NCBI GenBank assembly: GCA_934196725.1
Contig: CAKPWR010000004.1
Span: 1 to 64,000, forward strand
DNA from: an uncultured Prevotella sp.
GTDB lineage: Bacteria; Bacteroidota; Bacteroidia; Bacteroidales; Bacteroidaceae
DNA length: 64,000 bases
Direction of reading: 5' to 3'
Positions 37,610 to 52,105 of the stretch are shown here, in pieces; position 1 is the first letter of the stretch; every line of letters starts with the position of its first letter. Under the pieces are notes generated by a model that was not told where the DNA came from, ran no database searches, and saw only the letters and a list, made by a program, of their open reading frames with translations. A program made the position numbers and the translations under genes.

Positions 37610-38932
37610 TTAATTATTCATAATTGGTTTGTATGTCATCTGATTTTGATAAGACAAAGATCTATTCTGCGAACGTTCTATTCTATTTGGATTACGAATT
37701 TCTTTAGAATTGTCTTTTGCATTCATTGCTGCTTCTATTTTTTTATTGGCTTTTTTGTCGAAGTCCTTGTATTCTTCGCTGTCTGTAGTATATTTATTAT
37801 ATTCAGCGTTAACACCTCCAAATTTTGGAACTACATAGTCGCCTTTATAGTGCTGCTGAAAGTAGCTGTTGACAAATTCCTTTCTTTTCCCATTTGGAAT
37901 TTTAACCTTTTTCATAAGGAAAGCGATGAACTTAGTAGAAACGTAGTACTTTTCTTTTTGTAGGCGTACCTTATTTCCTTTTATGTCAAATTCTTCGATG
38001 TGGACCATGAGTATTCTCAACATTCTTCCCAGTTTTACTTTTTGTTCGACATCAGTAATATCTTCATATAGGCTGCATTCATCGTTGTTTAGTCCATAGT
38101 TCTCCTTTAAAATTAGGCGATAGAGGGGAATGAGGTAGGTAAATTCTTCCTCATTCAACTCGTGATAGTATTTAACAACGAAATCATCAAAGTCCATAGT
38201 CTTCAAATCCTTTACCAGGTCAGGAAAGATAGACTCTAAGTATGGAAGTCCTAATCCGTCTAGAAGATATTTTATCTCAGCTTCTTTCTTTGCTTTGCAT
38301 TTATTGAAAATCTCCAAAACGCGATGTTTGTCTTTTCTTAATTCTTCAACGAGGTAATCTATTTTAGTGGCATATATAAACATTTCCTTTAATCTTGCAA
38401 ATAAATTCAGTAGATTAGAGAATGCGAGTTTCACGCTGTCACTGAAAGAATCTAATCCCCATATTACAGTTTGCACATGAGGAGCATTGATAGGAGAGTT
38501 GTCAAAGACAGAATGCTTGATTCTGTTTAACTCATTATCGTATAGTCTTTTCTGTTCAATTATCTTCGTGTTGGTAAACTCCGTATAGATGTTTGCCATA
38601 AGACTAGAGATTCTTGAAGCCTGTGTCTGATACTCCTTTGTTCTTTTATAGTATTTGTTGTAATTTGTGGCGTATAGTTTTAAATAGTCTTCTGCTTTTT
38701 TTTGCATTAACTCATACTCATTATCAACTCTTCTCTGCCAACACTCAATTTTTTTTATGAGTTTTTGGGTTTGTTCAGAGTCAAAAGAAAGCTCCTGCAA
38801 GTAACTGATAAATCTTGCTTCTGCAGTTTTTTCGTCCCCTTTGTATGAAGGGCGTACGAGCATTAGTTCTAGCTTGGGAAGCAAGAACTCAAATACATCT
38901 ATGTTTATGGGTGTTTCTTTGCTTAAAATCAT
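37610..38932 (-). CDS. Uncharacterised AT-rich accessory gene
   Basis: A 440-residue, Lys/Glu/Tyr-rich, mostly helical cytoplasmic protein without signal peptide. Residues 30-125 are predicted coiled coil (FDSEQTQKLIKKIECWQRRV..YLKLYATNYNKYYKR). The C-terminal 80 residues are basic and Asn/Gln-rich. I recognise no domain. The gene is visibly more AT-rich than the housekeeping genes, pointing to horizontal transfer. It is bounded by the iteron cluster and a perfect hairpin on one side and an AT-rich gap on the other. A phage- or element-borne role is a guess. Confidence 0.65.
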   Translation of the reverse strand: MILSKETPINIDVFEFLLPKLELMLVRPSYKGDEKTAEARFISYLQELSFDSEQTQKLIKKIECWQRRVDNEYELMQKKAEDYLKLYATNYNKYYKRTKEYQTQASRISSLMANIYTEFTNTKIIEQKRLYDNELNRIKHSVFDNSPINAPHVQTVIWGLDSFSDSVKLAFSNLLNLFARLKEMFIYATKIDYLVEELRKDKHRVLEIFNKCKAKKEAEIKYLLDGLGLPYLESIFPDLVKDLKTMDFDDFVVKYYHELNEEEFTYLIPLYRLILKENYGLNNDECSLYEDITDVEQKVKLGRMLRILMVHIEEFDIKGNKVRLQKEKYYVSTKFIAFLMKKVKIPNGKRKEFVNSYFQQHYKGDYVVPKFGGVNAEYNKYTTDSEEYKDFDKKANKKIEAAMNAKDNSKEIRNPNRIERSQNRSLSYQNQMTYKPIMNN

Positions 38933-46887: not shown

Positions 46888-47186
46888 GAATCTTCGATGT
46901 TTTAATGATGTACTCACAATTGTCTTTGCGTGATATAAGCTTCTTTCTTTCTTGAATATATATATATAGAAAAATCGGCTCTTCTTTGCAAGTTTAGTGC
47001 AAAGGTACATTTTTTTTTGAATTATTTATCCAAAAATGACTTTTAATTCTAATTCAGACTATTTTTTTTGTATTTTAAGGCATAAATGCTTGTAATTTTC
47101 AATCTTTCTTCGTACCTTTGCCACTTGAAGGGTGAGGAATCTGATTTATAGAGGATTCGGAATCATCCGGAAGGTGGAAGAAAGTA
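46888..47186. promoter_or_regulatory. Divergent control region between res and the first TA cassette
   Basis: It holds a minus-strand TACCTTTG box (47000-47007) for res and a plus-strand promoter for the TA cassette (TTG 47090-47092, 20-bp spacer, TACCTTTG 47113-47120). The block CAATCTTTCTTCGTACCTTT beginning at 47100 recurs at 51229 and, with small changes, at 53844. Confidence 0.7.
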
Positions 47187-47213
47187 ATGTGGAACTTTAA
47201 AAGCGAAAGAAAT

Positions 47214-47486
47214 ATGGAGGAAAAGAAATATCATATCGAGGAATCGGAGATTGCTGGTGATAAGGTCTGTGAGCCATCGCCTGCTTATCGTTCATCAGTA
47301 TCATCAGCATCATCAGTATCATGGGATGAGGCTTATAACGCCGATTCCTATCCTATGGGACGCTCGTTGGAGCAGGTGATGGAGCATTGCTCAGAAATAG
47401 ACAAGCACTTGGATGACCCGAACTATGGAATGTCGTGGGAGGAATTTGATGCTCATTTACGTAAAACGATTCCAGGATGGTTATAA
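47214..47486 (+). CDS. Antitoxin of TA cassette 1
   Basis: A 90-residue acidic protein, MEEKKYHIEESEIAGDKVCE and onward. Residues 1-67 are nearly identical to the antitoxin of cassette 3, while the last 15 or so differ (WEEFDAHLRKTIPGWL). No DNA-binding domain is obvious, and the C-terminus likely wraps the toxin. An in-frame ATG at 47187 (MWNFKSERN) is possible, but the second cassette starts at the MEEKKYH position, so 47214 is preferred. A 9-nt TCATCAGTA repeat lies in the middle. It overlaps the toxin gene by 10 bp. Confidence 0.8.
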   Translation: MEEKKYHIEESEIAGDKVCEPSPAYRSSVSSASSVSWDEAYNADSYPMGRSLEQVMEHCSEIDKHLDDPNYGMSWEEFDAHLRKTIPGWL

Positions 47487-47815
47487 GACAGGATGAGGTC
47501 TTCATGCAAGAATTTCAGAAATGTCTTGTTTTTGCATTAGAAGAGTTTGGCAAGAAGACGGTTGGGAAAAGGCAAGAGCAGATGTCTCGTATCATGCATC
47601 GGTTGAAAATGATGCCTGAGAGTTATCCGTTTGTGCCTGAACTGCAGAAATGGAGAATGTATCGTGGTGCCATCATCATGAAGAACTTCAAGATTATCTA
47701 TTTCTATAATGAAGAGAAAGATATCATCTGGCTGGTGGATCTCTGGGATATGCGCCAAGACCCTCGTAAGCTGAACCTGCGAGCCAGGAGAATAGAAATA
47801 AAGGATTATCATTAG
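47477..47815 (+). CDS. RelE/ParE-family toxin of TA cassette 1
   Basis: A 112-residue toxin with the RelE/ParE fold pattern: helical N-terminal half (FALEEFGKKTVGKRQEQMSRIMHRL) and C-terminal beta strands (KWRMYRGAIIMKNFKIIYFY and DIIWLVDLWDMRQDP). From about residue 50 onward it is almost identical to toxin 3, whereas the N-terminal 45 residues differ. RelE-like members usually cut mRNA on the ribosome and ParE-like ones poison gyrase; which applies here is unknown. Translation is coupled to the antitoxin by a 10-bp overlap. Confidence 0.85.
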   Translation: MVIRQDEVFMQEFQKCLVFALEEFGKKTVGKRQEQMSRIMHRLKMMPESYPFVPELQKWRMYRGAIIMKNFKIIYFYNEEKDIIWLVDLWDMRQDPRKLNLRARRIEIKDYH

Positions 47816-47836
47816 AACTTTAAAAGTGAAAGAAAT

Positions 47837-48124
47837 ATGGAGGAAAAGAAATATCATATCGAGGAATCGAAGATAGCTGGGGATAAGGCTTGTGAGCCAT
47901 CACCTGCTTATGCAACTGTTGCATCAGAGCCTGTATCTCATCACGTGATTGATTCTGGGATAGAGCAGGAAGATGAAATTCCTGTTCTTAAAAATCATTT
48001 CAGTTACGAGGGGCTTATGGATAGTATCGATTATTGTGAAACCATAAAGGATGATCTTTCTAAATGGGAGTCTGTTGATGCCTTTAACGAACGTTTATAT
48101 GAGGAATTCCCATGGCTGAGATAG
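47837..48124 (+). CDS. Antitoxin of TA cassette 2
   Basis: A 95-residue acidic protein starting MEEKKYHIEESKIAGDKACE. Only the first 27 or so residues match cassettes 1 and 3. The remainder (NHFSYEGLMDSIDYCETIKD..FNERLYEEFPWLR) is its own. The upstream flank AGAACTTTAAAAGTGAAAG is the repeated cassette junction. It lies 21 bp after toxin 1 and overlaps toxin 2 by 13 bp. Confidence 0.8.
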   Translation: MEEKKYHIEESKIAGDKACEPSPAYATVASEPVSHHVIDSGIEQEDEIPVLKNHFSYEGLMDSIDYCETIKDDLSKWESVDAFNERLYEEFPWLR

Positions 48125-48435
48125 TTGTTCACAAGCTGTATGAAGAAAAGGAACGCCAGTATATTATCGATGCTTATGAGAATTTTGGTAAGAAAACAGC
48201 TCGAAGATGGAAAGAAGAACTGATGAAAATTCAGAACTTCCTGAAAAAATATCCTGAAGGTAAGCCCCCTTTTCTTGGTGCACCGAAGTTTAGCTATTTG
48301 CTTCGGGGTGCTAATTTTATGCGTAATTTCAAGTTGGTTTATTATTATGATGAATCCTTGGATATAGTGCATATTGTTGATATTTGGGATATGAGGCAGA
48401 ATCCAAAAAGACTCTCAGTCTCAAAATATAAATGA
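48112..48435 (+). CDS. RelE/ParE-family toxin of TA cassette 2
   Basis: A 107-residue toxin with the same fold pattern as toxins 1 and 3 but divergent throughout: YENFGKKTARRWKEELMKI, LLRGANFMRNFKLVYYY and DIVHIVDIWDMRQNPKRL. The shared IWDMRQ(D/N)P end suggests one family. It is coupled to antitoxin 2 by a 13-bp overlap and followed by another copy of the cassette junction that leads only to a dead antitoxin start. Confidence 0.85.
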   Translation: MAEIVVHKLYEEKERQYIIDAYENFGKKTARRWKEELMKIQNFLKKYPEGKPPFLGAPKFSYLLRGANFMRNFKLVYYYDESLDIVHIVDIWDMRQNPKRLSVSKYK

Positions 48436-48437
48436 TT

Positions 48438-48507
48438 ATGTAGAACTTTAAAAACGAAAGAAAAATAGAGGAAAAGAAATATCATATCGAGGAATCTAAA
48501 ATTGCAG
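48438..48507 (+). pseudogene. Dead 5' end of a further antitoxin gene
   Basis: GTAGAACTTTAAAAACGAAAG and a GAGGAAAAGAAATATCATAT stretch match the junction and first codons of the antitoxins. The ATG has become ATAG by a change at about 48470, and homology ends after about 18 codons at GCAGG. No toxin follows. The rest of 48508-48714 shows no gene. Confidence 0.75.
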
Positions 48508-48714
48508 GGGGACAGAATGAACCTTTGTGGTTTTATGACCTCATGTGACTGCTGCATCGGCAAAAGCGTCGCCCGGCATTATCGGATAAAAAGTAGTCGA
48601 GGCGAAGATGCCTACACTTTACTTCTGCAGCAATAAAGAAAGTGAATTAAAGAATTAATGAATTTATTTAAATTCAAGTTTGCCGGACATCCAAGCTTGT
48701 TGCTATTAAGAATT

Positions 48715-49935
48715 ATGAAGAGAACATTACTCGCTTCAGCTTTCGCAGTCGTAGCGCTGGCTGCCAGTGCACAGGTATCAGAAGTGGCCACGGTGAAGGG
48801 CGAAGGATTTGGTTTCATTCCAAAGAATTTGACTACCACTGGTGTCATCACTCCTTATTCAACCATCGGTATAGAGTATAATTGGGATGCCCTGCCACCT
48901 ACGGTAGGTTTTACGGTTTATGATGCTTCCTCTTTTAATGTGGAGAAAAGCTTCACTTACAGCCCTGAGGTATTTTTTATCAATTATACGCCTATGAAAG
49001 CTTTGGCCGACTTCACTACCAAGGAGGTTATAAATAAAGGTAATGAGGAGGCCTATTGGGGACAGGTTAATGGTGTATATGGTGAAGACGGTTTTGAGAC
49101 ACCGATTACGACAATGGATGAATTCAAGGCTGCTGTGGCTAAAATAATGGGTAATGATAAGGTAGAATTCTTTACTGATTACAGTGGAAAATTCGCTTTC
49201 CATTATGGCGACTGGCAAGAGTTTAATGGGTGGGCTGATAAGGATGTGCCCGAAGTTAGAGAGTGTTACTTTTATTATAATCCTGCTGACAATAAACTGC
49301 ATTTGGTAACTAATCAGTTGGTGACAGCAGAGATTGATACTTCTAATTTGACTTGGGTGAAGAATGATAACGATAAGAGTTCGGAGAGCGTAGTGGGGGA
49401 AAAAATCTGTCATGTAAAAATGTACGATTATGATACCAACTGTAATGAGAGTTCCAATCCCTACCTTACTCAAAATGTGTTTAACAATGATGATAAGTAT
49501 GAGTTCCTGGTGAAAACCTATAAACAGGTACCAGCTCCAGCTTCATCCTTGTACGAATCAACGAAAGGCATAAAAAACGGAAAGTTCATTCTTTGCAAGG
49601 ATGCACAGGATAAATACTATGAGTCTTATCTTGTAGTAAAGAATGAGGATGGAAAGGAACTGATTACCATTCCAAACGCTAGTTATAACGATATTTTTTG
49701 TGTGTATCGTGCCAACGGTAAGACTTATATCGAGAATAGTGAATATCTTAGAAATAGTAAAAATATACAATACGTAATCTATCAGCTCGACAAGACTGAT
49801 ACCGGCATCACAGAGCTTGCCCGCACCCAGGCGGTGAAGTCAGCCAAGACCTTCAATATGGCTGGCATGCTGGTAGGCAAGGATGCCAAGGGCTTGGTTA
49901 TCCAGCAGGGTGGCAAGAAATACTTTAACAAGTAG
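48715..49935 (+). CDS. Secreted protein of unknown function
   Basis: A 406-residue secreted protein. The signal peptide is MKRTLLASAFAVVALAASAQ. The mature part is beta-rich without recognised motifs (long stretches of aromatic and Asp/Asn residues). The last 40 residues (TFNMAGMLVGKDAKGLVIQQGGKKYFNK region) resemble the short Prevotella C-terminal motif of the form YNxxGxxV..KGLxIxxGKK, which often marks exported proteins. Start 48715 follows from the signal peptide. A degraded second copy of the C-terminal end follows the stop codon (see 49940-49978). Confidence 0.75.
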   Translation: MKRTLLASAFAVVALAASAQVSEVATVKGEGFGFIPKNLTTTGVITPYSTIGIEYNWDALPPTVGFTVYDASSFNVEKSFTYSPEVFFINYTPMKALADFTTKEVINKGNEEAYWGQVNGVYGEDGFETPITTMDEFKAAVAKIMGNDKVEFFTDYSGKFAFHYGDWQEFNGWADKDVPEVRECYFYYNPADNKLHLVTNQLVTAEIDTSNLTWVKNDNDKSSESVVGEKICHVKMYDYDTNCNESSNPYLTQNVFNNDDKYEFLVKTYKQVPAPASSLYESTKGIKNGKFILCKDAQDKYYESYLVVKNEDGKELITIPNASYNDIFCVYRANGKTYIENSEYLRNSKNIQYVIYQLDKTDTGITELARTQAVKSAKTFNMAGMLVGKDAKGLVIQQGGKKYFNK

Positions 49936-49978
49936 CATTGCTATCCTGCAGGGTGGGAAGAAAAATTTCGACAAGTAG
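49897..49978 (+). repeat. Tandem duplication of the C-terminal end of the secreted protein
   Basis: The segment encoding IQQGGKKYFNK-stop (from about 49900) is followed by a second, diverged copy encoding ILQGGKKNFDK-stop (to 49978), separated by the first stop codon. It suggests a past extension or slippage at the gene end. Confidence 0.65.
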
Positions 49979-50152
49979 CAAATCCCTCCGGTCCCCGGAG
50001 GGGCCAATTCTCAATAACCGCTGGTGGAATGACCGAAGGGAATGGAACCTGCGGATAAGCATATAGCAATAGAAATCGTCCCCAAAGGGGGCGAACCGGA
50101 GCAAGAATTGTTGTAGTTCGTCTTCTTTGGGGACGATTGGGTGTTATAATCT
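49979..50152. repeat. Palindrome-rich intergenic repeat
   Basis: CCTCCGGTCCCCGGAGG is a near-perfect palindrome at about 49985-50001. AATCGTCCCCAAAG (50074-50087) and CTTTGGGGACGATT (50125-50138) form a 14-bp inverted repeat enclosing about 37 bp. It has the style of a small non-autonomous repeat (REP/MITE-like). It lies between the secreted protein gene and the Fic relic. Confidence 0.65.
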
Positions 50153-51000
50153 AATAAGTTGCAAAATGGCATTTCTCGTTTCTGGTCCACCTTTTTGGTC
50201 CACCTTTTTGGTCCACCTTTTTATTTTCTGGTCCACCTTCTTCTCCGCCTTTTCCATCTTGTTATCTCTTTTCAGCTCCACTTTTATATCAGCTATTGCA
50301 ATATCTTCTTCCATTGATTTCCTGTATTCAAGAATCTCGTTTCTCAGGTTTTGCGTGTGCTCTTTCAGCATGAATTTCTGGAAGGGTGCCATTGCTTCTT
50401 TTTCTCTCGATTCATTGAGGGCTTCTATATACTGCGCCTTATCCTCTTTGATGATTTTAGCAGGCACCAGTCCGAACTCAAATTGCAGGTGGTTCATGAT
50501 GAGGCGCGACATTCTGCCGTTGCCATCCACCCATGGGTGAATAGTAACGAGAATGTTGTGGGCATCGAAGCTCAGCAGGTAGGCATCTATGGCGTTGGGG
50601 CTTTTGATGAGCGCTTCTCTTCGCTGGTTGATGTGGTTGCAGAGTTCTTCCAGTTTCATCGGAACTTTGCGGTAGTCCATGTAGGAGCGGCCGCCTGCTC
50701 CTGCCGTAACGCCAACAAGGCGCAGGTCACCCTTTGATGAGTCGAATTCGCCCATCAATGTACTGTAATGGCTGCCCGTATTTCTCATCACCAGGGCGGA
50801 GAGGTTCTTGAGCATTTCCACGGTGAATGGCTTATGTTCTCTTGCCCATCTGATGGATTGTTCGTAAGCTCTCTTCAGGTCGAGGTTCATGAGTTGTTCC
50901 ACCATCGGTTTGCCTTTAGCCGTGATGCCTTCGTCGAAGAGAAGTTGATTCTCTATCTCGGTTACGGTGGAGCCTTCGATGGCGGTGGAGTGGGTGATGA
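50153..51000 (-). pseudogene. Truncated duplicate of the Fic gene
   Basis: An approximately 848-bp segment that matches 41303-42150 at about 95% by eye. The copy lacks the first 30 or so codons and the C-terminal winged helix, and both ends stop abruptly (left at AAGTTGCAAAATGG, right at GTGGGTGATGA). The HPWVDGNGRMSR core is intact and a frame from an internal ATG (50902-50904) remains open, so a partial product is conceivable. The linker 13-mer is expanded to three units. Confidence 0.85.
50184..50237 (-). repeat. Expanded 13-bp repeat in the Fic relic
   Basis: Three tandem GGTCCACCTTTTT units (50184-50196, 50197-50209, 50210-50222), a 7-bp gap, and GGTCCACC again. The number differs from the intact Fic gene, showing that the tract changes in copy number. 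Confidence 0.82.
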
Positions 51001-51288
51001 CGTCTGTTTTTGTGGATGAAATAGATTTCGTATCTAGTTCGATGAAGTTCTACACTCAATAGTCCGACCAGACAATAATACAACAGAACTTCGGAGGATG
51101 AGAATGCGCCTAGCTATAGGCGTACCCCTTCCTTTCGTTTCTGTTGTTCTTTGCGTGGGATGATTATCCGCATAATCCGTTAAATTTCAGCGTTCTCTGC
51201 CATTTTCTAGCATTTTTCTTGCGAGTTCCAATCTTTCTTCGTACTTTTGCACCAATAAGCAATGTGGAACTTTAAAAGCGAAAGAAAT
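51001..51288. promoter_or_regulatory. Gap with promoter of TA cassette 3
   Basis: The gap contains a small CGCCTAGCTATAGGCG palindrome near 51108 and the TA promoter (TTG 51219-51221, 20-bp spacer, TACTTTTG 51242-51249) embedded in CAATCTTTCTTCGTACTTTT. The cassette junction GGAACTTTAAAAGCGAAAG follows at 51265. Confidence 0.7.
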
Positions 51289-51561
51289 ATGGAGGAAAAG
51301 AAATATCATATCGAGGAATCGGAGATTGCAGGTGATAAGGTCTGTGAGCCATCGCCTGCTTATCGTTCGGCAGCATCATCTGCATCATCCGTATCATGGG
51401 ATAAGGCTTACGACACCGATTCCTATCCTATGGGTCGCTCGCTGGAGCAGGTGATGGAACATTGCGCAGAAATAGACAAGCATTTGGATGACCCGAACTA
51501 TGGTCATCCTGTGGATGATTTGATTGCAAGATTAGAACAGAAGATTGCGCAATGGAGATAA
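51289..51561 (+). CDS. Antitoxin of TA cassette 3
   Basis: A 90-residue acidic protein nearly identical to antitoxin 1 up to DDPNYG, then with a different end (HPVDDLIARLEQKIAQWR). That end matches the relic at 39327-39382. An upstream in-frame ATG at 51262 is possible. It overlaps toxin 3 by 10 bp. The exchange of only the C-terminal segment suggests that this segment determines the toxin partner. Confidence 0.82.
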   Translation: MEEKKYHIEESEIAGDKVCEPSPAYRSAASSASSVSWDKAYDTDSYPMGRSLEQVMEHCAEIDKHLDDPNYGHPVDDLIARLEQKIAQWR

Positions 51562-51890
51562 AGACTGTTGATTTGTTTGATAGCGAATTTGACAAATGTG
51601 TAGATTACGCTTTGTTGGAATTCGGCAGAAAAACAGTCCGTAAATGGATTGATAGCTTGATTGGTATTAAACACCATTTGAGGCAGATGCCAGAACGCTA
51701 TCCGTTTGTGCCTGAACTGCAGAAATGGAGAAAGTATCGTGGTGCTATCATCATGAAGAACTTCAAGATTATCTATTTCTACAATGAAGAGAAAGATATC
51801 ATCTGGCTAGTGGATCTCTGGGATATGCGCCAAGACCCTCGTAAGCTGAACCTGCGAGCCAGGAGAATAGAAAGAAAGGATTATCATTAG
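51552..51890 (+). CDS. RelE/ParE-family toxin of TA cassette 3
   Basis: A 112-residue toxin. The N-terminal 45 residues (MEIKTVDLFDSEFDKCVDYALLEFG and onward) differ from toxin 1. From YPFVPELQKWR to the end the two differ at only two positions. The toxic surface (C-terminal strands) is thus shared while the antitoxin-contacting helices differ. The stop codon is followed by the cassette junction AGAACTTTAAA, which is interrupted by a palindromic element. Confidence 0.86.
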   Translation: MEIKTVDLFDSEFDKCVDYALLEFGRKTVRKWIDSLIGIKHHLRQMPERYPFVPELQKWRKYRGAIIMKNFKIIYFYNEEKDIIWLVDLWDMRQDPRKLNLRARRIERKDYH

Positions 51891-51897
51891 AACTTTA

Positions 51898-52105
51898 AAT
51901 CCGCTAGGCGTCCTGCCGGATTTGCAATCCGGCATAAAAAATGTTCGACCATTTAGGGCATTGCGGATTTGCAATCCGCCTCACCTGGATGGGTAAAAAA
52001 AGATTTGCAATCTTGCTTGCTGCGGATTGCAAATCCGCAGATCCTAAAGAGGTTAGGTCATTTTTCGACGACGGATTTCAAATCCGTCGAAGCGCCTAAC
52101 GGATT
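51898..52105. repeat. Nested palindromic element with terminal inverted repeats
   Basis: The ends AATCCGCTAGGCG (51898-51910) and CGCCTAACGGATT (52093-52105) are inverted repeats (12 of 13). Inside lie five palindromes built on GGATTTGCAATCC: 51915-51933, 51963-51979, 52000-52014, 52021-52039 and 52070-52088. No gene is present. It joins the TA cassette junction on one side and the stop of an AAA gene on the other. It is likely a MITE- or REP-like element. Confidence 0.78.

Follow-up and report, generated by a model that had tools for sequence, protein, structure and literature searches.

We analysed a window of 64,000 nucleotides (the whole stretch, from contig CAKPWR010000004.1 of an uncultured Prevotella sp.), which, to judge from its sequence, is DNA of Segatella copri, a human gut bacterium, or of a very close relative. 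It carries three small cassettes, each a putative antitoxin gene followed by a putative toxin gene, at two loci (locus 1, 47192-48510; locus 2, 51267-51899). Locus 1 consists, in order, of a promoter-like site, cassette 1, cassette 2 and a truncated fourth unit. The first-pass annotation had described all three cassettes as tandem; this holds for cassettes 1 and 2, but cassette 3 forms a separate locus 2.8 kb past cassette 2, with its own promoter-like site. Strain iA622 (L002) matches the 4.1 kb beyond the 3' end of cassette 3 at 92% identity. The features are as follows.

47100 to 47122, + strand: promoter-like site of locus 1 (AATCTTTCTTCGTACCTTTGC), from an upstream alignment of five arrays
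47192 to 47212, + strand: junction copy 1, an exact junction match
47214 to 47486, + strand: antitoxin 1, block type B; a start of the open reading frame (ORF) is possible at 47187
47429 to 47623, + strand: exchanged block of cassette 1; 92 of 195 sites differ from cassette 3
47477 to 47815, + strand: toxin 1, block type B; 10-nucleotide overlap with antitoxin 1
47815 to 47835, + strand: junction copy 2, immediately 3' of the toxin 1 stop
47837 to 48124, + strand: antitoxin 2, type E; shared leader of about 25 residues, body distantly like types A-D
48112 to 48435, + strand: toxin 2, type E; Pfam ParE_toxin at 21.9 bits, cut-off 23
48443 to 48510, + strand: truncated fourth unit; junction and start of the antitoxin leader, ATG changed to ATA
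51229 to 51250, + strand: promoter-like site of locus 2, from the upstream alignment
51267 to 51287, + strand: junction copy of locus 2, an exact junction match
51289 to 51561, + strand: antitoxin 3, block type A; of its two predicted helices, 52-63 is constant and 75-89 exchanged
51504 to 51698, + strand: exchanged block of cassette 3, the best-fitting block against cassette 1
51552 to 51890, + strand: toxin 3, block type A; ParE/RelE fold in the predicted structure
51890 to 51899, + strand: partial junction (GAACTTTAAA), the end of similarity to cassette 1

The junction GAACTTTAAAANNGAAAGAAA has four exact matches in the window (47192, 47815, 48443 and 51267), with 0.05 expected at three mismatches or fewer. 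As the first-pass annotation proposed, all three cassettes share this junction and the 5' end of the antitoxin gene. Cassette 2 is like the others only in the junction and in roughly 25 residues at the antitoxin start (92% and 91% nucleotide identity), and the remainder is 37-53% identical. The MEEKK start, from which we number antitoxin residues, is used by cassette 2 and most listed relatives, and the ORF of antitoxin 1 may open further upstream, at 47187.

Cassettes 1 and 3 are colinear, equal in length and gap-free over 636 bases, and their differences are concentrated in one place. Inside the best-splitting block 92 of 195 sites differ, compared with 23 of 441 outside it (Fisher p 2e-34), and the maximum chi-square for this split was 161, where 200 shuffles of the sites gave no value above 20. 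The block begins at antitoxin residue 72, ends at toxin residue 49 and is one contiguous piece across the gene overlap. Nucleotide identity is 98.7% in the antitoxin leader, 89.6% in the antitoxin middle, 51.7% in the last 20 antitoxin codons, 56% in the first 47 toxin codons and 95.9% in the remainder of the toxin. Synonymous divergence (dS) is 0.075, 0.34 and 0.94 in the three antitoxin segments, saturated in the first 47 toxin codons and 0.15 thereafter. On sequence grounds the mosaic is real and the block arose by recombination, because dS is saturated in its toxin part but 0.075-0.34 in the flanks. The earlier picture of near-identical flanks around a diverged middle spanning the gene overlap was therefore accurate; "strongly diverged" describes that middle well, but "unrelated" does not fit the toxins, which keep 45% amino acid identity over their first 47 aligned residues (30% over the last 20 antitoxin residues). 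Between genomes, cassettes of one type are alike throughout: cassette 1 and its counterpart in S. copri strain Indica (L001) are 88-97% identical in every segment, with the minimum in the antitoxin middle and not in the block, and cassette 2 and the type E cassette of iA622 are 92-97% identical in every segment.

We then considered how widely such blocks are combined with the same flanks. The homolog searches list 120 of 215, 120 of 278 and 120 of 284 matches, and the counts of types are among those listed. Four types of toxin N-terminal half (A 33, B 6, C 7, D 19) could be assigned in 65 of 120 listed toxin relatives, and they sit on interchangeable C-terminal halves. Between types, N-halves are ~36-57% identical. 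Among the 47 of 124 toxins with both a recognised N-type and a full-length C-half, 19 of the 23 polymorphic C-half sites have at least two alleles that each occur in at least two N-types. Mean C-half identity in this set is 86% within N-types and 83% between them, and one C-half is identical between an A toxin and a B toxin. The toxin C-halves thus appear to be mosaics themselves. The 151 listed antitoxins fall by their tails into types A (73), D (35), C (26) and B (12), with 5 unclassified, and 14 of 16 repeated leader haplotypes are paired with more than one tail type. Recombination has also affected the linker in front of the last antitoxin helix (P0250, P0262, P0263 and P0195, judged by eye). 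In nature, then, the same flanks carry at least four block types, as expected from the first-pass idea of a central block between constant flanks. Its further wording, that these cassettes exchange only the interface segment, is contradicted by cassette 2, which differs in its whole body after the leader, and by the mosaic C-halves.

Several listed proteins are shortened. Among the entries from P0086 to P0119 are many type D-like toxins recorded as 68-residue proteins that have no N-terminal half, and a normal C-terminal half is missing from some type A toxins (P0048, P0050, P0051), which hints at frequent toxin loss. One listed antitoxin, P0150, is recorded as coming from an Escherichia coli metagenome-assembled genome and is probably a mis-binned Segatella sequence.

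Across the genus, the toxin profile matches 90 of 398 genomes. From these, 72 full-length toxins were extracted and 66 were kept with an antitoxin ORF at the expected overlap; the 6 dropped loci include the type E cassette of iA622, where the wrong upstream ORF was taken. The last 18 antitoxin residues co-vary more strongly with toxin residues 1-46 (r 0.75) than with residues 47-103 (r 0.55; interval of the difference 0.15-0.26) in 59 non-redundant pairs, 4 of them from S. copri. With the S. copri pairs left out, the values are 0.76 and 0.53 (interval 0.17-0.29; 55 pairs), so that the coupling of antitoxin tail and toxin N-half extends beyond S. copri. Co-variation in the 59 pairs drops between about toxin residues 50 and 58, near the S. 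copri breakpoint, and the antitoxin middle has no preference (r 0.63 with the N-half, 0.62 with the C-half). At thresholds of 60%/45%, none of 140 similar N-halves had dissimilar tails. At 70%/40%, dissimilar tails and dissimilar N-halves were each found in 5 of 108 comparisons with similar C-halves. All-versus-all comparison of the 66 pairs, near-duplicates included, gave a mosaic pattern (high flanks, low block on both sides) in 27 of 2145 comparisons. Without the S. copri cassettes the count is 25 of 1830, with 3 of the reverse pattern, and these 25, which represent 18 loci in a few groups, mainly two sets of related sequences, cannot be counted as independent. A cassette diverging evenly along its length, the result that would have spoken against exchange, is accordingly found in the great majority of distant comparisons within the genus and not within S. 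copri.

The model of toxin 3 has a first strand (beta1), helices alpha1 (7-24) and alpha2 (26-45), three strands and a C-terminal helix, and its nearest solved folds are ParE and related toxins, which assigns it to the ParE/RelE fold. The Pfam ParE_toxin profile, PF05016, matched neither toxin 1 nor toxin 3, and toxin 2 fell below the cut-off; among three relatives, P0044 scored 28.6 bits (above the cut-off), P0059 21.3 (below it) and P0074 had no match. Antitoxin 3 is modelled poorly up to about residue 50, its first 45 residues having no regular helix-strand domain (low confidence), and then forms helices 52-63 and 75-89 (mean predicted local distance difference test score 69; 85-88 for the last 40 residues). 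In these models the block corresponds to antitoxin helix 75-89 plus toxin beta1-alpha1-alpha2, with the breakpoints between predicted domains. In the available text of the ParD3-ParE3 study, antitoxin helix 2 touches toxin residues 59, 62, 73, 75, 89 and 91 and helix 3 touches toxin residue 12 (PMC7669267). By analogy, antitoxin and toxin would meet at two sites, a constant first one and a second one that determines specificity. The first-pass equation of block with interface is partly right: the block coincides with the modelled C-terminal helix of the antitoxin and the helix pair at the toxin N-terminus, but the contact expected by this analogy between the first antitoxin helix and the toxin C-half is not exchanged.

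The layout is that of type II systems, with a small antitoxin gene first, the toxin gene second and both in one operon. The genes overlap by 10 or 13 nucleotides in the six cassettes measured. None of the three window antitoxins had a Pfam match near its cut-off, to a ribbon-helix-helix (RHH) domain or otherwise. An RHH-like start, by a home-made pattern, is present in 3 of 66 genus relatives (L091, L096 and L098), where it replaces the leader and a similar kind of tail is kept; antitoxin front parts therefore vary too. A short xEP motif ([SCANQKGHE]EP, the residue set chosen post hoc) is present in 55 of the 66 genus antitoxins, within their first 60 residues, and in 1 of 66 toxins; an example is CEP at 51343-51351. 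The antitoxin leader in which it lies has no predicted structure.

The cassettes also differ between strains at the same chromosomal place. The region downstream of cassette 3 is orthologous in iA622, whose array consists of a type E cassette and, after it, a type C one. In genome G046 and in L029, a fecal scaffold, type E sequence and a truncated leader precede a homolog of the patatin gene that lies near cassette 3. At the locus in front of the patatin gene there is thus A in the window, E then C in iA622, and E in G046 and L029, and cassette content there therefore varies between strains. In G046 (L006 / L103) the type E toxin gene is split by a stretch with a DDE transposase ORF, and the antitoxin gene is still open. 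The leaders of the two iA622 cassettes are 97% alike despite their different bodies, and same-type leaders between genomes are 92% alike.

Together, these data lead us to propose, with a probability of roughly 0.7, that the S. copri cassettes are a chromosomal, multi-copy, type II-like toxin-antitoxin family whose flanks recombine and in which matched block types survive on common flanks. Homologous recombination would take place between cassettes, paralogous or from other strains, with crossing over in the near-identical flanks, one of them made up of the junction plus the leader and first helix of the antitoxin, the other of the C-terminal sheet core of the toxin. Survival would require that the last antitoxin helix stay with toxin beta1-alpha1-alpha2, since in a mismatched pair the toxin would go unbound; as mixed pairs would die, breakpoints inside the block would be purged. 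The outcome would be block types A-D, and a wholly different type E, on common flanks. Each pair would be toxic and neutralising, binding at the block, with the types insulated from each other. General recombination without a dedicated enzyme would suffice. A Pfam search of 14 neighbouring proteins gave no recombinase match (two, at 37610-38932 and 48658-49935, matched nothing), and no programmed switch was seen among these neighbours either, so the first-pass notion of a system that generates new pairs is not supported as worded; ordinary homologous recombination with loss of mismatched pairs is the likeliest cause. Somewhat short of even odds, we would extend this to a contiguous block across the overlap that sets the neutralisation partner, persists in strains and species as a balanced set of types and moves between constant regulatory and toxic parts, so that S. 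copri strains would have different, mutually blind repertoires.

Several results weigh against this proposal. Three comparisons of the genus set showed the reverse pattern beside the 27 mosaic ones. With a longer antitoxin segment, the difference in coupling was not significant (r 0.72 and 0.67; interval -0.03 to 0.12). At the 70%/40% thresholds, similar tails with dissimilar N-halves were found in 0 of 136 comparisons, as were similar tails with dissimilar C-halves, so this absence is not specific. At 60%/45%, 32 of 192 similar tails had dissimilar N-halves and 9 of 192 dissimilar C-halves, because the N-half changes faster, and this opposes a strict lock. Linked antitoxin-toxin DNA in the S. 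copri group amounts to seven cassettes (three in the window, one in L001, two in iA622 and the transposon-interrupted one in G046), and type D was seen solely as separate proteins. Conservation of the antitoxin leader, finally, could be functional and not merely a recombination handle.

An explanation to which we give slightly under even odds is concerted evolution, in which the block types are old paralogs or alleles, gene conversion overwrites the flanks and the block resists because mixed pairs are lethal. It is a variant of our proposal and not exclusive of it, with the flanks moving and not the block. In other lineages, listed toxins combine an N-half resembling type A or type C with a lineage-own C-half: identity between P0024 and P0028 is 98% in the C-half and 42% in the N-half, and P0059 has an N-half 65-67% like type C (P0034, P0029), its nearest listed C-half being that of P0049 (82%). 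The likeness of the two iA622 leaders, greater within that genome than between genomes of one type, points the same way. However, the patatin-gene locus holds different units in different strains, so bodies are also replaced in place. Such replacement favours block movement and the lineage-own C-halves favour flank homogenisation, and both may occur.

The other explanations are much less probable. The junction and leader, strongly conserved, repeated and left as remnants at array ends, could be recognition sites at which a recombinase swaps blocks to diversify pairs, but we consider such programmed shuffling unlikely, as the breakpoints vary among the linker recombinants, variants within the toxin C-half are reassorted and the neighbouring proteins searched yielded no recombinase. 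Interface residues of toxin-antitoxin pairs do diverge between paralogs, in the published work available to us, and an old duplication with a fast-diverging interface and constrained flanks would need no recombination. This is very unlikely here, since it is contradicted by flank dS of 0.075-0.34 beside saturation in the toxin part of the block and by flank variants common to several block types. Least probable of all is a mis-joining of two similar metagenome repeats during assembly: the window repeats are near-identical, but type B is also found in strain Indica, types A-D recur in many separate clusters and the edges of the block fall where the predicted domains end.

A type III restriction-modification pair adjoins locus 1 on the opposite strand. 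At locus 2, cassette 3 is flanked by a Fic gene on one side and, on the other, by an AAA-ATPase/PDDEXK_9 gene and then the patatin-Omp85 gene. A 425-residue protein encoded between the loci (48658-49935) has no Pfam match at E <= 0.01. The Bacteroidetes -7 consensus is TAnnTTTG. The AATCTTTCTTCGTACCTTTGC site also lies upstream of the first cassette in four more arrays (window locus 2, L001, L002 and G046), and the junction and promoter-like block are common to these five arrays in four genomes. The last unit of an array can be a truncated junction and the first antitoxin codons (48443-48510; L029; L103 of G046), and L029 and G046 are nearly alike in where the truncation falls and in the sequence after it. 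The record of L029 (MT839386) is named "Bacteriophage sp.", but the sequence appears to be a piece of Segatella chromosome with a cassette end and the patatin gene.

Among known systems, ParD2-ParE2 and ParD3-ParE3 of Mesorhizobium opportunistum share the ParE fold, and the insulated paralogs are theirs; the RHH DNA-binding domain of ParD was not recognised in the window antitoxins. The single-copy agr system of Staphylococcus aureus is similar in its block-wise arrangement of specificity, but it is a signal-receptor system made of different genes, and the cassettes, with a ParE-fold toxin and a small antitoxin, are not agrBDCA homologs. In polymorphic toxins, whole toxin domains are joined to delivery parts, whereas here a sub-domain spanning two intracellular genes is exchanged. 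As far as the accessible text of the sources goes, three positions suffice to rewire ParD3 specificity (PMC7669267), whereas the cassettes differ over a whole contiguous block; the agr specificity groups are defined by a hypervariable region that spans agrB, agrD and agrC (PMC10482373); and polymorphic toxins and bacteriocins diversify their toxin domains by recombination with toxin-coding cassettes (PMC3482391, PMC5821083). A 2023 review, in its accessible part, describes functional-domain swapping between families and distribution by recombination (PMC10305079), on a coarser scale than the block described here. PaaR-PaaA-ParE of E. coli O157:H7 is tripartite, with the regulator PaaR, and the portion of its literature available to us does not mention a mosaic block. 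Between promoter-like site and antitoxin, the only interval in which a third regulator gene was sought, neither locus has an ORF of 40 residues or more. We found no account of such an exchanged block in the type II toxin-antitoxin literature, of which our coverage was partial, so that this is weak evidence of absence.

The usual view is that new toxin-antitoxin specificities arise step by step, by point mutations that pass through promiscuous intermediates. Exchanging an interface block of two genes wholesale would be an alternative route, in which both partners change together and an unneutralised state therefore need not be passed. The natural block types on near-identical flanks provide ready-made test pairs, and the sharp edges of the block indicate which half of the interface should set specificity. 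The mosaic thereby suggests how bacteria may make toxin-antidote pairs that ignore one another.

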